The notes under the pieces were generated by a model. It was not told the origin of the DNA, made no database searches, and worked only from the letters and a program-made list of their open reading frames with translations. Source: a virus. Taken from it: DNA of 26,593 nt. Location: positions 1 through 26,593 of IMG/VR virus record IMGVR_UViG_3300046463_000836. One strand, given 5' to 3'. This document shows positions 21,077-26,180 of this stretch, piece by piece (position 1 is the stretch's first letter; every line of letters begins with the position of its first letter). Made by a program: the position numbers and the translations under genes.

Positions 21077-21676
21077 ATGAAGATGGATAATCTAAAAAAG
21101 ATACGCAGGCTCTTTTGCATCATTGTGCCATTCGTTCTCGTGCTTTCTCTGCTCCTGATCGGCTTTCAGTCAATCCTGGTCATCCAAGGGAGCACCGCAC
21201 TTGCCATCGATAATGCTGGTTTGCAGCGCTCACGCTCAACGGCTATTGCCAAGAATGCGCTCATCCTGGCGTATCGCACAGACATAAAAGAGCGCGTACA
21301 GGCCATCAGCGATCTCCAAGTGATTGTGCCACTCTTTGAGCAAGAGCAAGGCGTGCTCAACAGCTACAGACCAACAGACATCCAACTGCTAATGAGCTCA
21401 TCACGCTCGGATTATCTCGCTTTAGATGCTGCACTCAAGTCCATCATTCTGCACCAGGACCGACCAATTGATCAAATTCAGGTCGACATCATTTTGGCAC
21501 ACACAACATCCTACAACGTGGCCATCAATCAGGTGGTTATCGCCATCCAGAACCATGTAGATGACGAGGTCCGTATGCTCTTCCTCATCGAGGTGGTGAT
21601 AGATGCATTACTCATCATTCTGGCAATTGTGCTCTTTGTGAGTGTTTTACGTATGACGAAGGAGAAAAAGATATGA
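21077..21676 (+). CDS. Membrane protein with PilJ/NarX-like sensor domain, no output domain
   Basis: The product has 199 residues from ATG 21077, preceded by GGGAGGAGG. Topology appears to be N-in/C-in with TM1 ~12-34, an external helical domain ~36-165, TM2 ~168-192 and a 7-residue basic tail. Just after TM1, AIDNAGLQRSRSTAIAKNAL matches the 'iN-AG-qRm-sqr-ak-al' element of the PilJ N-terminal and NarX-type sensor domains. Chromosomal relatives continue into HAMP and kinase or chemotaxis output; here there is nothing after TM2. It lies between an XhlA-like gene and a peptidase gene with an ATGA overlap. It may regulate lysis, block receptors, or act as a holin-like protein. Function is unproven. 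Confidence 0.65.
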   Translation: MKMDNLKKIRRLFCIIVPFVLVLSLLLIGFQSILVIQGSTALAIDNAGLQRSRSTAIAKNALILAYRTDIKERVQAISDLQVIVPLFEQEQGVLNSYRPTDIQLLMSSSRSDYLALDAALKSIILHQDRPIDQIQVDIILAHTTSYNVAINQVVIAIQNHVDDEVRMLFLIEVVIDALLIILAIVLFVSVLRMTKEKKI

Positions 21677-22416
21677 ATGCACAACACATTTACAATTTAC
21701 ATGCTCAATTACCAGACATTCGAGATCATGAATATGAAGCCCCTGAAGGCATTGTTCTACCTACGGAGGTAGACTACCGTCCTATCTGCATACCCGCATT
21801 CGATCAGCTTCAATTAGGCTCCTGTACATCCCAGAGCGCCATATTCGCTCTCTGGTTTGCTGCTCACAAGCAAGGTGAGCAAGCAGTGATGCTTTCGCGG
21901 CTCATGCATTATTATCTTGCGCGCTCGAACAAACGCAAGGATACAGGCTCTACTGTCAGACAATCGGTCAAGGTGGCCGTCAAGTATGGTGTGTGTCCTG
22001 AGACGGAATGGCCGTATGACATCACTCAATTCACGAAAAAACCGCCACAAGCCTGCTACGATGACGCCGCACAACATGAAGCGAAGGAGTATAAGGCTGT
22101 TGCCCAGGACATGACAACGATGAAAACGTGCTTAGCCTCTGGCTACCCTATCCTTATCGGATTTACGGTCTACACCAGTTTCGAGAGCCAGGCCGTCGCG
22201 TCAACTGGAATTATGCCTCTGCCTCAGAAAACCGAAAGCGTCTTAGGTGGTCATGCGGTCTCTCTTGTCGGTTATCAGGATGATACGCAGTGTTTCATTG
22301 CGAGAAACTCCTGGAGTGCATCATGGGGTGACAATGGGTATTTCTATATGCCCTACGAGTATGCCCTTAGCCCGAAATTATCTACTGATTTCTGGATGAT
22401 TCAAACCGTATCCTAA
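21673..22416 (+). CDS. Papain-like (C1A) cysteine peptidase
   Basis: The product has 247 residues. The catalytic set is complete: Gln45 and Cys51 in QLQLGSCTSQSA (Q at Cys minus 6, as in papain), His194 in LGGHAVSLVGY, and Asn212 in ARNSWSASWGDNGYF. The opening LPDIRDHEYEAP and VDYRP follow the pattern of bacterial C1A enzymes without a long propeptide. There is no signal peptide, so it would act in the cytoplasm, on lysis, or after release through the holin. It overlaps the PilJ-like gene (ATGA) and precedes the endolysin by 13 bases. The substrate could be peptide cross-links, cell-surface protein or a phage protein; the sequence does not tell. Confidence 0.9.
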   Translation: MNAQHIYNLHAQLPDIRDHEYEAPEGIVLPTEVDYRPICIPAFDQLQLGSCTSQSAIFALWFAAHKQGEQAVMLSRLMHYYLARSNKRKDTGSTVRQSVKVAVKYGVCPETEWPYDITQFTKKPPQACYDDAAQHEAKEYKAVAQDMTTMKTCLASGYPILIGFTVYTSFESQAVASTGIMPLPQKTESVLGGHAVSLVGYQDDTQCFIARNSWSASWGDNGYFYMPYEYALSPKLSTDFWMIQTVS

Positions 22417-22429
22417 AGGAATATATATA

Positions 22430-23434
22430 ATGCAAGATCCACAATCAGTATGGATACCAAATAATAATTTCTTTGTCGGGCGTAATGCCAATAGAGCATA
22501 TTATATTATCCTCCATGGCACGGCTGGGGGTACAAGTGCGACAGGTATAGCCAACTACTTCAAGTCTACAGAAGGCACTACCAGCCCCGTTTCATCTCAT
22601 TACATCATCGATCAGGCGGGTACTATCGTCTGCTGTGTCGCGGAGGAGAACAGCGCGTGGGCCAATGGAGCATATTCAATAGGCCATGATCCATGGTGGA
22701 ACATAAACGAAAATCCAAATCACCTGACAATATCAATTGAGCATGTGAAGCAAAACGCGGATAATGGCAACCAGCTCACGCCCTTGCAGCAACAAGCTTC
22801 ATTTGGCCTTGTCCAGCGAATCTGCCAACGCTGGAGTATCCCGATGCAATCTGCTACCGTACGAGGCGGTATTACTGGCCATTACTCAATTGATCCCGTA
22901 AACCGTAGCAATTGTCCAGGCCCGTATCCCTGGCAGGCACTCTGGACTTTCCTGCAAGGAGGAAACAATACTATGCTTGATTTGACTGATCCCGTTGTCG
23001 CCAGATACTTTACGGATGGTGGCAATGGCACATGGAAGTGTAATAATGGCGTGATTTTGCTTGGTGGAAATCTTACCTTCTACCGCTCCAACGGTGGCCC
23101 AGCTCTGCTCGGTCTGCCCCTGGCTAATGAGATTCATCTTGCCCAATATCCCAATACAGCCATTGTCCCCTGTGAACGAGCATTGATTGTTTATGATCCG
23201 AATCGCGTCATTGATCATCCACCGATGGACGGTCCCTGCTACTTGCTTCATATCAACGCTGGTATCGGACAACAGATCGTTGCCAAGGCACTGACCGATC
23301 CACTGAACACACAAATAGCGGCATTGCAGGCTCAGCTTAAGAAAATACCGTCTCTCTTAGGCATGCCGACCCAGATAGAGGATTATAAGCAGCGATTGCA
23401 GCAAATATATGAACTATCGAGGATACCATCATGA
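22430..23434 (+). CDS. Endolysin: N-acetylmuramoyl-L-alanine amidase (Amidase_2) with C-terminal domain
   Basis: The product has 334 residues. Residues ~20-175 are an Amidase_2/T7-lysozyme-like domain that cuts the bond between muramic acid and the stem peptide. Zinc ligands appear to be His29 (YIILHGTAGG), His151 (ITGHYSIDP) and Cys162 (NRSNCPGPYPW), with Glu104 in the conserved SIEH. Residues ~183-260 form a second domain (LDLTDPVVARYFTDGG, GPALLGLPLANE), likely wall-binding. The end is a coiled coil (IAALQAQLKKI, EDYKQRLQQIYEL). There is no signal peptide, so release depends on a holin. The start ATG 22430 follows TAAAGGA. Confidence 0.95.
   Translation: MQDPQSVWIPNNNFFVGRNANRAYYIILHGTAGGTSATGIANYFKSTEGTTSPVSSHYIIDQAGTIVCCVAEENSAWANGAYSIGHDPWWNINENPNHLTISIEHVKQNADNGNQLTPLQQQASFGLVQRICQRWSIPMQSATVRGGITGHYSIDPVNRSNCPGPYPWQALWTFLQGGNNTMLDLTDPVVARYFTDGGNGTWKCNNGVILLGGNLTFYRSNGGPALLGLPLANEIHLAQYPNTAIVPCERALIVYDPNRVIDHPPMDGPCYLLHINAGIGQQIVAKALTDPLNTQIAALQAQLKKIPSLLGMPTQIEDYKQRLQQIYELSRIPS
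22956..23434 (+). promoter_or_regulatory. Internal ribosome site and in-frame ATG for endolysin C-terminal part
   Basis: AAGGAGG at 22956-22962 lies ten bases before ATG 22973, which is in frame with the amidase. The predicted extra product has 153 residues and begins MLDLTDPVVARYF exactly at the domain boundary. Some phage endolysins are known to make such separate binding-domain subunits, which assemble with the full-length enzyme. Confidence 0.6.
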
Positions 23435-24356: not shown

Positions 24357-24838
24357 TATTCTCCCTTCGCAGCGACGGCTGCACTCAAAGACTCGAACCA
24401 TACAATAGGTAGTCCAGTGTTGCGTGCGATGATCTCATCGGCGTTTGCTGGCTCATCTTCTATAAGCAAAATGTCTGTTGCCCGATATTCGCCCACAAGC
24501 TCGCCAACGCGCCGGGCTTTCCACGCTTTCGTTTTTGTGCGCTGTTCGGATGCTGGCTTCATTTCCAGCCTCGCCAACGCGACGCCATGGGTATAGAGCC
24601 ACTCAACCGTGCAGCTCCGCATGGGGTTCGATGGGCGGTTCGTTAGAAAGACGAGCGTATACCGACGCTCTAACTTTTCCAGTGCCTCTACCGCACCGGG
24701 GATAACTACATCCAGATGGACGTACTGGCTGCTTAGGGCCAGATTCCAGTTCACCTTGCCATCCGTCGTACAGCGAGCAAATCGCTCCTCTGAATTACAA
24801 ACAACGCCATCAATGTCCACTATTGCGAGTCGATTCAT
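24356..24838 (-). CDS. HAD-superfamily phosphatase, PNK 3'-phosphatase-like
   Basis: The product has 160 residues from ATG 24838, which has GGTGGAGG upstream; a farther in-frame ATG (24874) would lack this site. HAD motif I is DIDGVVCNS (Asp8, Asp10) near the N terminus, motif II is VFLTNRPSN (Thr66), and motif IV is LLIEDEPANADEI (around Glu127/Asp128). A Lys near 94-107 could supply motif III. The cap is small. The size and DIDG form resemble phage HAD proteins related to the 3'-phosphatase half of T4 polynucleotide kinase, but the kinase half is absent. A role in nucleotide, tRNA or DNA-end dephosphorylation is possible; the substrate is unknown. Confidence 0.85.
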   Translation of the reverse strand: MNRLAIVDIDGVVCNSEERFARCTTDGKVNWNLALSSQYVHLDVVIPGAVEALEKLERRYTLVFLTNRPSNPMRSCTVEWLYTHGVALARLEMKPASEQRTKTKAWKARRVGELVGEYRATDILLIEDEPANADEIIARNTGLPIVWFESLSAAVAAKGE

Positions 24839-24854
24839 GCTACATCCTCCACCT

Positions 24855-25160
24855 TCATAATATAATTGCGCCATCGCGCTTGATCATCTCATCTGTTTCT
24901 TTCATTGCTTGCAGGAACTTCAAAAGTTCTGGTAACGACTGGAAACTTTTTGCTTTGTTGGCTAGAACCGCATTATCATTCGGGCTGACAAACGGGGCTA
25001 TCCAGTACCGACGCTCCTCAATATGTGAGTCGATGTTGATGTACTTCTCAGATGACGACAGCCAATTCCAACCTATTTCAGCAAGGAGTATGTCACAACG
25101 CTCCTTTACCTTTGGGCGACCTGCACCGGAACGAGCGCCACCATGATTTACGCTAACCAT
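24855..25160 (-). CDS. Small protein with GGARSGAGRPK N terminus, possible DNA-binding
   Basis: The product has 101 residues. ATG 25160 overlaps the previous stop (TAATG). The N-terminal GGARSGAGRPK is a basic Gly-rich tag seen on many phage small terminase-like and other DNA-associated proteins, where the usual form is GGARxGAGRK/RP. The rest (LLAEIGWNWLSSSEKYINID, ELLKFLQAMKETDEMIKRDG) has no family I recognise. It is shorter than a small terminase and sits far from the packaging genes, so I call it only a possible nucleic-acid-binding protein. Confidence 0.7.
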   Translation of the reverse strand: MVSVNHGGARSGAGRPKVKERCDILLAEIGWNWLSSSEKYINIDSHIEERRYWIAPFVSPNDNAVLANKAKSFQSLPELLKFLQAMKETDEMIKRDGAIIL

Positions 25161-25432
25161 TATTTAACCTTCTTCACTAAAGAATTGCGAGGATCTTCTA
25201 CATCCAGATAGCGGTAATCGTATTCCGTCTGAGTGCCATCATCCAATTCTATGAATATCCATTGAGGGATGCCATAAGAATTCCATTTATGATGGGAAAC
25301 AGCGCCCTGCTTCCATTTACCAGGAGCCCACTCAACCTCACACCACACTCTTGTGCCCACAGGAAGATACGCTGGGTACGCTTCATAATCTCCATTCCGT
25401 TCTGCTTCAGTGATTTCAAGCCCTGTGCTCAT
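25160..25432 (-). CDS. SH3-like small protein, first gene of minus-strand operon
   Basis: The product has 90 residues from ATG 25432, with AAGGAGA nine bases upstream. Residues ~23-80 look like an SH3/Tudor-type barrel: LPVGTRVWCEVEWAPGKWKQ, WIFIELDDGTQTEYDYRYLD and a closing DVEDP. Such small barrels in phages may bind nucleic acid or protein. Transcription probably starts at the palindrome-covered promoter at 25470-25498, so this gene and the three after it are likely regulated together. No precise function is supported. Confidence 0.7.
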   Translation of the reverse strand: MSTGLEITEAERNGDYEAYPAYLPVGTRVWCEVEWAPGKWKQGAVSHHKWNSYGIPQWIFIELDDGTQTEYDYRYLDVEDPRNSLVKKVK

Positions 25433-25485: not shown

Positions 25486-25498
25486 TTTGAATATGCAA
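25470..25498 (-). promoter_or_regulatory. Promoter of the minus-strand four-gene operon
   Basis: Read on the minus strand, TTGCAT (25498-25493) and TATACT (25475-25470) are separated by exactly 17 bases. Transcription would begin around 25463, about 30 bases before the first start codon. The same two boxes with the same spacing occur again at 25689-25717. Confidence 0.75.
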
Positions 25499-25549
25499 TA
25501 GGTATTCATGTTAGTTTTGCAAGTTACACAATAACCCGTTTCACACGAC

Positions 25550-25682
25550 AAAAAAGCCTCACGCAAATGTGAGGCTTTTGCCCGCTTGGTTAATATTTCA
25601 ATCCCAACTGGGTTCAACATGCCATTTGTGTATTCTCTCTTTCAATCTCAGATGAGAGAGGAGAGTGCATTTCTAACGGCAC
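25550..25682 (-). ncRNA. Candidate small RNA with two CRISPR-repeat-like hairpins
   Basis: Between the promoter at 25689-25717 and an intrinsic terminator at 25552-25579 lies about 130 bases with no credible ORF. On the minus strand the RNA would begin near GUGCCGUUAGAAAUGCAC, able to fold with a 4-bp stem. Two similar units follow: CTCATCTGAGATTGAAAG (about 25657-25640) and CCCAGTTGGGATTGAAAT (about 25612-25595). Each is a 10-base hairpin palindrome directly followed by ATTGAAA. The stem differs by a compensated pair (CTC/GAG against CCC/GGG). Many CRISPR repeats end in ATTGAAA(C/G). The 44-base period is too short for a normal array. It could be an RNA anti-CRISPR mimic, a decayed mini-array or another structured RNA. 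Confidence 0.6.
25552..25579 (-). terminator. Intrinsic terminator of the candidate small RNA
   Basis: On the minus strand an 11-bp stem (AAAAGCCTCAC ... GTGAGGCTTTT) with loop ATTTGC ends in a run of T residues (TTTTTTG, with the T run continuing to about 25550). It lies before the promoter of the next minus-strand operon, so it isolates the small RNA from it. The symmetric A/T runs would let it work on both strands. Confidence 0.85.
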
Positions 25683-25688
25683 GTCTCT

Positions 25689-25717
25689 AGTATAGCCTAT
25701 AGAACCGTGCAATGCAA
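25689..25717 (-). promoter_or_regulatory. Promoter of the candidate small RNA
   Basis: On the minus strand, TTGCAT (25717-25712), a 17-base spacer and TATACT (25694-25689) form a good sigma70-type promoter. Both hexamers and the spacing are identical to those of the downstream operon promoter while the spacers differ, so the match is unlikely to be a simple duplication. The 22-bp palindrome is absent here. Confidence 0.75.
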
Positions 25718-25732
25718 GTATTTCAGCACAAC

Positions 25733-25772
25733 AAAAAGCCCACACTAGGGGCATGATCCCCAGGCGGGCTAG
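25733..25772 (-). terminator. Terminator-like hairpin after the 108-aa gene
   Basis: On the minus strand AGCCC ... GGGGATCATGCCCC ... GGGCT forms a two-part stem that ends in TTTTTG. A further inverted repeat, CAGCACAAC/GTTGTGCTG (about 25724-25732 and 25777-25785), encloses it. It lies between the 108-aa gene and the small-RNA promoter. Positions of the inner arms are approximate. Confidence 0.7.
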
Positions 25773-25853: not shown

Positions 25854-26180
25854 CTACGTGAGAGAGTGGGGCGATTGCCAGGCCTTGTACGGATTATCGT
25901 TGCCCTTTACGTCCCAAAGGGTCCTTACGTCTACTGCTTGCCCATATTCCCACTCCAATATTTGATCCTCACTATACGCCTGATCCGTTGGCGTGTAGGT
26001 ATTGCGATCATAACGACGCTGCAAGTATGCCAGTTCCCTCGCTTGCTTCAACTCAAGACGACGAGCCAGGTCTCGTGTGTGCGTTGCAACGTCTTGAGGC
26101 ACCATTGTTTCATATTCACGGATAGGTGCCACAGGTGGCCGTACAGGTGGCCTAGTCTTTGCTTCTTTTCTGCCATTCAT
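25854..26180 (-). CDS. Hypothetical charged protein, own promoter
   Basis: The product has 108 residues from ATG 26180, with AAAGGTGA upstream. The N terminus is basic and Pro-rich (KEAKTRPPVRPPVAP). The middle is a charged helix (RDLARRLELKQARELAYLQRR) and the C terminus is polar and aromatic. No family is recognised. It is the first minus-strand gene of the accessory region, with a promoter about 65 bases upstream, and is followed by a terminator-like hairpin, so it appears monocistronic. A small regulatory or host-directed early protein is possible. Confidence 0.65.
   Translation of the reverse strand: MNGRKEAKTRPPVRPPVAPIREYETMVPQDVATHTRDLARRLELKQARELAYLQRRYDRNTYTPTDQAYSEDQILEWEYGQAVDVRTLWDVKGNDNPYKAWQSPHSLT

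Follow-up and report, generated by a model that had tools for sequence, protein, structure and literature searches.

RNA anti-CRISPRs (Racrs) inhibit CRISPR-Cas systems via repeat mimicry, and those tested concern types I-C, I-E, I-F, and V-A (Camara-Wilpert et al., 2023; PMC10651486). For example, Cas6f binds and cleaves RacrIF1, and the upstream cleavage product holds Cas6f and Cas7f (PMC10651486). The SRUFinder search for solitary repeats accepts a sequence if its identity to and coverage of a known repeat reach 90% and if no further (partial) repeat lies within 100 bp. In CreA, Cas6 cleaves each of the two degenerate repeats, where the first gives an 8-nt 5′ handle and the second a 3′ handle (PMC8501985), and divergence is greater in the first repeat (PMC9458426). 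Additionally, mini-CRISPR arrays are known in viruses (PMC6858448). In type I-D systems, Cas6d cuts after the stem of the repeat, leaving handles of 8 nt and 29 nt (PMC10212523).

The unit described here is located at positions 25550-25717 of a 26.6-kb virus record (the whole stretch of DNA analyzed, hereafter the window), in an intergenic region of the phage contig, between two terminators of the minus strand. It probably encodes a two-repeat RNA anti-CRISPR that imitates the type I-D (and type III) repeats of the Ktedonobacteria. It shares with Racrs the apparent features of a small RNA encoded between phage genes behind a promoter, which imitates the stem and handle of host repeats and is not accompanied by cas genes. 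Unlike Racrs, it consists of two units 44 nt apart, its best identity among the Ktedonobacteria repeats compared is 76% rather than at least 90%, and type I-D is not among the types tested. Hence, the solitary repeat unit proposed in the first-pass annotation gives way to a two-unit gene with a gap of 7 nt.

The minus-strand gene upstream (25854-26180) has its own terminator at 25737-25770 (minus strand), with a TTTTTG after a fold of -26.7 kcal/mol (z of -3.3), and the unit is therefore isolated from it. A putative promoter, TTGCAT-N17-TATACT (25689-25717, minus strand), lies within 250 bp upstream of the repeat-like sequences. Its putative -35 element TTGCAT (25717-25712) matches the consensus at three of six positions, and its putative -10 element TATACT (25694-25689), at a spacing of 17 nt, at five of six. 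The promoter is thus weak, with 8/12 consensus positions, and it fell below the threshold of the promoter scan and was not called. Transcription would yield a predicted non-coding RNA of about 130 nt (25550-25685, minus strand), as delimited by the promoter-like sequence and by an intrinsic terminator with an 11-bp stem (AAAAGCCTCAC-ATTTGC-GTGAGGCTTTT-TT; 25550-25579, minus strand; fold z -4.3). This terminator was probably missed by the pattern scan because its T-run lies partly within the stem. No credible ORF was found in the unit, as a frame of 63 amino acids (25620-25429) reads through the terminator. The first-pass annotation had placed the unit, the promoter-like sequence, the transcript of about 130 bases, and the 11-bp terminator at these same minus-strand positions and had noted the absence of an ORF, all of which is borne out.

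The predicted transcript includes two repeat-like units with a period of 44 nt. Unit 1 (GTTAGAAATGCACTCTCCTCT-CTCATCTGAG-ATTGAAAG; 25639-25677, minus strand) is repeat-like mainly in its stem and handle, which are formed by the hairpin CTCATCTGAG (25656-25647) and the handle ATTGAAAG (25646-25639). Unit 2 (ACACAAATGGCATGTTGAA-CCCAGTTGGG-ATTGAAAT; 25595-25631, minus strand) appears to mimic a 37-nt CRISPR repeat over its full length, with the hairpin CCCAGTTGGG at 25612-25603 and the handle ATTGAAAT at 25602-25595. The two are separated by the 7-nt gap AGAGAAT (25632-25638, minus strand), at the position of the approximately 36-nt spacer of a crRNA. Each hairpin is directly followed by ATTGAAA, and the two differ by one compensated pair (T-A and C-G). 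These features had been reported together with 10-base palindromes, which are in fact 3-bp stems with 4-nt loops. In an Rfam search, no family, CRISPR repeats included, reached the cut-off for the unit; at a loose cut-off, four of the six matches in a 141-nt stretch were to CRISPR direct-repeat models, without significance. Matches of the locus obtained by blastn among phages, plasmids, and 47 host genomes were short and rejected as chance only, with several located in coding sequences or 5′ leaders.

The capsid protein of the window is 77-82% identical to those of five viral contigs and 77% identical to the capsid of a brp13 prophage (Ktedonobacteria bacterium brp13, AP024096), which assigns the host to the Ktedonobacteria at the class level only. 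No recognised acr gene was found near the unit, the neighboring genes matched no cas family in Pfam, PHROGs, or NCBIfam, and the flanking genes 25854-26180 and 25160-25432 and the amidase had no protein relatives in viral contigs. Elsewhere in the window, a Papain-family (C1) peptidase gene (21673-22416) directly precedes an N-acetylmuramoyl-L-alanine amidase gene (22430-23434), and the two are perhaps a two-enzyme lysis cassette (21673-23434). The minus-strand gene at 24359-24874 encodes a HAD-fold protein that matches phage polynucleotide kinase families (phrog_415, E 3.7e-18). Additionally, an intergenic motif around TTGCAAAACTAA, located upstream of promoter-like sequences, is common to the window (about 25496-25525) and the related phage G001 (59551-59580), and this motif of two Ktedonobacteria-related phages is possibly an operator.

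A pattern search of the Ktedonobacteria revealed two copies of GATTGAAA spaced 64-92 nt apart in about half of 47 genomes, while control matches were almost nil. The repeats of this class are 37 nt long, form a 3-bp stem, and end in ATTGAAAC or ATTGAAAG; their length fits the sum of the two type I-D handles. One family, GGCTAAATGG, adjoins cas10d, cas3d, cas6d, cas1d, and cas4d in contig C24 of genome G026 (type I-D), and also a type III-like locus with RT, Cas1, Csx1, Csx3, and Cas6 in contig C44 of the same genome. Type I-D genes were found within the class in genomes G007, G026, and G030. The arrays next to the type I-D cas10d of G030 carry both the CCC/GGG and CTC/GAG stem versions, which are also the two versions in the phage RNA. 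The phage units resemble the type I-D repeats of G026 and G030, which combine a length of 37 nt, a 3-bp stem, and an 8-nt ATTGAAAC handle, and unit 2 is close to the GGCTAAATGG family. In contrast to these repeats, the units end in G or T rather than C, and they are located outside an array. In strain brp13 itself, the arrays are relics with three degenerate repeats, the cas6 genes are orphans, and neither cas1 nor cas10d was detected.

Among the 449 host spacers, the median length was 36 nt (range 29-50 nt), as opposed to the 7-nt gap of the phage unit. One of these spacers, from a GGCTAAATGGC array of G026 that belongs to the family of unit 2, matches the phage G005 at 31 of 35 positions (E 2.8e-5), where the best reversed spacer reached 0.002. 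The capsids of G005 and the window share 47% identity, and systems with repeats similar to unit 2 therefore do target this phage group. No spacer from the Ktedonobacteria arrays matched the window itself above the control. A further element was observed beside a CRISPR array on a Ktedonobacteria chromosome (contig C2 of G048; L148:10060-10330). It includes a promoter-like sequence and two degenerate repeats separated by 16 nt (53-nt period), is located just upstream of a gene with a start that by eye is HIT-family-like, and is a possible CRISPR-derived regulatory element.

Comparison with the repeats of candidate hosts supported the link to CRISPR repeats that the first-pass annotation had marked as inference. 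The 37-nt repeats of the Ktedonobacteria end in a stem followed by ATTGAAAC, and in an ungapped alignment 28 of the 37 positions of unit 2 agree with GGCTAAATGGCCTGCTGAACCCATTGGGGATTGAAAC, a repeat of brp13, for a host known to class level. The 19 nt located 5′ of the unit-2 stem, which that annotation had not used, agree with the brp13 repeat at 13 positions. The frequency of such agreement over 607,408 phage positions gave a P of 2.8e-4 against the three brp13 repeats and of 0.004-0.005 against the whole repeat set. With a matrix derived from the three brp13 repeats, the highest score over about 716,000 phage positions was that of unit 2 (25.1 bits); the runner-up, with 18.2 bits, is a sequence fetched for a similar pattern. 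A covariance model (R1) was constructed from 16 Ktedonobacteria repeats, without the window sequence, and 53,000 window positions were scanned. Both units were its top matches: with E-values from a short calibration, unit 2 was the best in the window (19.9 bits, E 0.012), unit 1 was the second (14.3 bits, E 0.19), and the next place had an E of 2.0.

The 5′ part of unit 1 did not resemble the host repeats above chance (P 0.18). As the 5′ half of the first unit in the second phage described below is also at chance, neither is claimed as a full repeat. An exact copy of the stretch CTCTCATCTGAGATTGAAA of unit 1 occurs near a contig end in genome G052 (G052:C826), at a distance of 2 kb from a type I-D-like cas1. 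This site may be either a CRISPR repeat or a single element, since the contig ends 63 nt later.

When 2.9 million viral contigs were scanned, GAGATTGAAAN{20,48}GGGATTGAAA matched 30 stretches, most of them in long reading frames. The only one that was non-coding and carried both hairpins, a feature outside the search pattern, was an intergenic locus (L166) in a second phage (IMGVR_UViG_3300002910_000003; G053). It consists of CTCATATGAG+ATTGAAAC, followed 46 nt later by CCCGTTTGGG+ATTGAAAC, a third CCCGTTTGGG without a handle, and a hairpin with TTTTT (terminator); upstream is a TTGACA with no clear -10. The second unit resembles the type I-D repeat of G030, GTTGCAGAGGGAAGAGCATCCCGGTAGGGATTGAAAC, and its 5′ part GTAGCATAGGGAAG is similar to the repeat GTTGCAGAGGGAAG of G030 (P 0.02). 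In both phages, the first unit retains only the stem and handle, while the second has the appearance of a complete repeat. The second phage shares proteins with G001 and the brp13 prophage and therefore probably infects the same host group, and tblastx revealed no similarity between it and the window. When 1.58 Mb of DNA was searched for tandem pairs of a 3-bp hairpin plus ATTGAAA located 34-58 nt apart, the pairs found were the window locus and that of the second phage, which had entered the 1.58 Mb via a pattern scan; 40 permuted words gave no occurrence. The layout thus recurs in the second phage, and it was not observed in the related phages G001, G002, G004, and G005.

Two further patterns were tried and rejected. 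The pattern AAATGGC..CCC..GGGATTGAAA had a single match among all viral contigs, within a coding gene. Four viral matches were found for GAACCCNNNNGGGATTGAAA, of which two were coding-like, one was in a 5′ leader, and one was a real mini-array in another phage.

The preferred reading suggests the following mechanism. The unit would be transcribed into an RNA in which the first repeat is degenerate (stem and 8-nt handle) and the second almost complete, and which the Cas6 of the host would bind and cut after each stem. Since type I-D Cas6 cleavage leaves handles of 8 nt and 29 nt (PMC10212523), a product of 44 nt is predicted (25603-25646, minus strand), composed of the handle AUUGAAAG, 7 nt, and a 29-nt 3′ handle with its stem. 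This product, of 44-46 nt across both phages, would amount to a crRNA with both handles, where 7 nt replace the guide of approximately 36 nt. It thereby differs from the RacrIF1 inhibitor, which is the product upstream of the cut and has no 5′ handle. The decoy and the flanking cut products may tie up Cas6d, Cas7d, and possibly Cas5d/Cas10d in short blind complexes, which would keep these proteins from real crRNAs to the benefit of the phage.

The weakest points of this reading are the modest identity of the repeats, a host placed at the class level only, and a competing fold. The predicted fold of the whole transcript had a z of -5.0 and that of the body alone a z of -2.4, so that much of the former is due to the terminator. 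In the lone transcript, an 11-bp stem is predicted (pair probabilities 0.83-1.0) between a 5′ arm, GACGTGCCGTT (25675-25685, minus strand), and a 3′ arm, AATGGCATGTT (25616-25626, minus strand), that overlaps the 5′ part of unit 2. This part is thereby paired away, and the unit-2 hairpin is absent from the predicted whole-transcript ensemble (pair probability 0.0). The predicted fold calls for caution about repeat mimicry and does not refute it, because the 3-bp stems of repeats are presumably weak in general.

The same outer stem, which competes with the repeat hairpins, and the absence of an Rfam family at the cut-off are what would be expected if the locus were an ordinary structured small RNA of the phage with a terminator, and its hairpins with ATTGAAA were CRISPR-like by chance. 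Such a coincidence has some small likelihood, as it would have to account for the ranks of unit 2 and unit 1 under the covariance model and of unit 2 under the matrix, the P values for the previously unseen 19 nt, the permuted-word control, and the second phage. An eroded virus-borne mini-CRISPR array, which has lost its function but in the past held a spacer directed at other phages, would likewise place repeat-like units in a phage with no cas genes, as known viral mini-arrays do. However, the repeats of mini-arrays are host-like and accompanied by a leader and full spacers, whereas the units here are degenerate (76%), have 7 nt instead of the host minimum of 29 nt, and end in their own intrinsic terminator. 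Nor would decay produce the period of 44-46 nt, the order of the units, and the terminator that are common to two phages with no detectable mutual similarity, and this origin is very improbable.

A Cas-guided regulatory RNA of the CreA/CreR kind, where a short guide steers the host Cascade to a partly matching promoter of the phage itself, the host, or a rival phage, is closer in anatomy. As is typical of creA, the two repeats are divergent, and the 5′ handle is retained in the first (for unit 1, the stem and handle only), as is the 3′ handle in the second; moreover, the G048 element indicates that such elements exist in the class. In contrast, just 7 nt are available for a guide, the inter-unit sequence is itself largely repeat-like, and the unit is in a phage with neither adjoining cas genes nor creT. 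No target was found in its own contig, and no 10-nt seed match for the inter-unit or tail sequence was found elsewhere in either phage. Judged within the sequences of the two phages, a guide role is therefore less likely, and this explanation as a whole is unlikely.

With the preferred reading of a two-repeat RNA anti-CRISPR, a broader proposal can be made tentatively: the loci may constitute a class of their own among RNA anti-CRISPRs, with members in at least two different Ktedonobacteria phages, where tandem degenerate repeats with a nearly fixed period of 44-46 nt would be converted by Cas6 into a guide-less double-handle crRNA, around which type I-D (or III) effectors would assemble complete but blind. 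If true, a two-repeat, double-handle decoy against type I-D/III systems would join the known single-repeat Racrs, and the targeted systems would be those of a soil group with little-studied phages. Published searches, requiring at least 90% identity and no second repeat within 100 bp, would overlook such elements. The proposal also implies a simple testable design, namely a crRNA with handles and without a guide.

Degenerate repeats were also observed away from arrays in Ktedonobacteria, where GGCTAAAAAGGCCTGGCTTCTCATTTGAGATTGAAAC and GGCTAAATGCTTTAGCAAGCCCGACCGGGGTTGAAAT flank one spacer-like stretch in contig C12 of G026 (L154:7097 region), as well as in L125. In addition, a viral contig (IMGVR_UViG_3300005851_000021; L085:13640-13880) includes an apparent CRISPR mini-array with four repeats of the GTGTAAACTGAACCCGCGAGGGATTGAAAC type.
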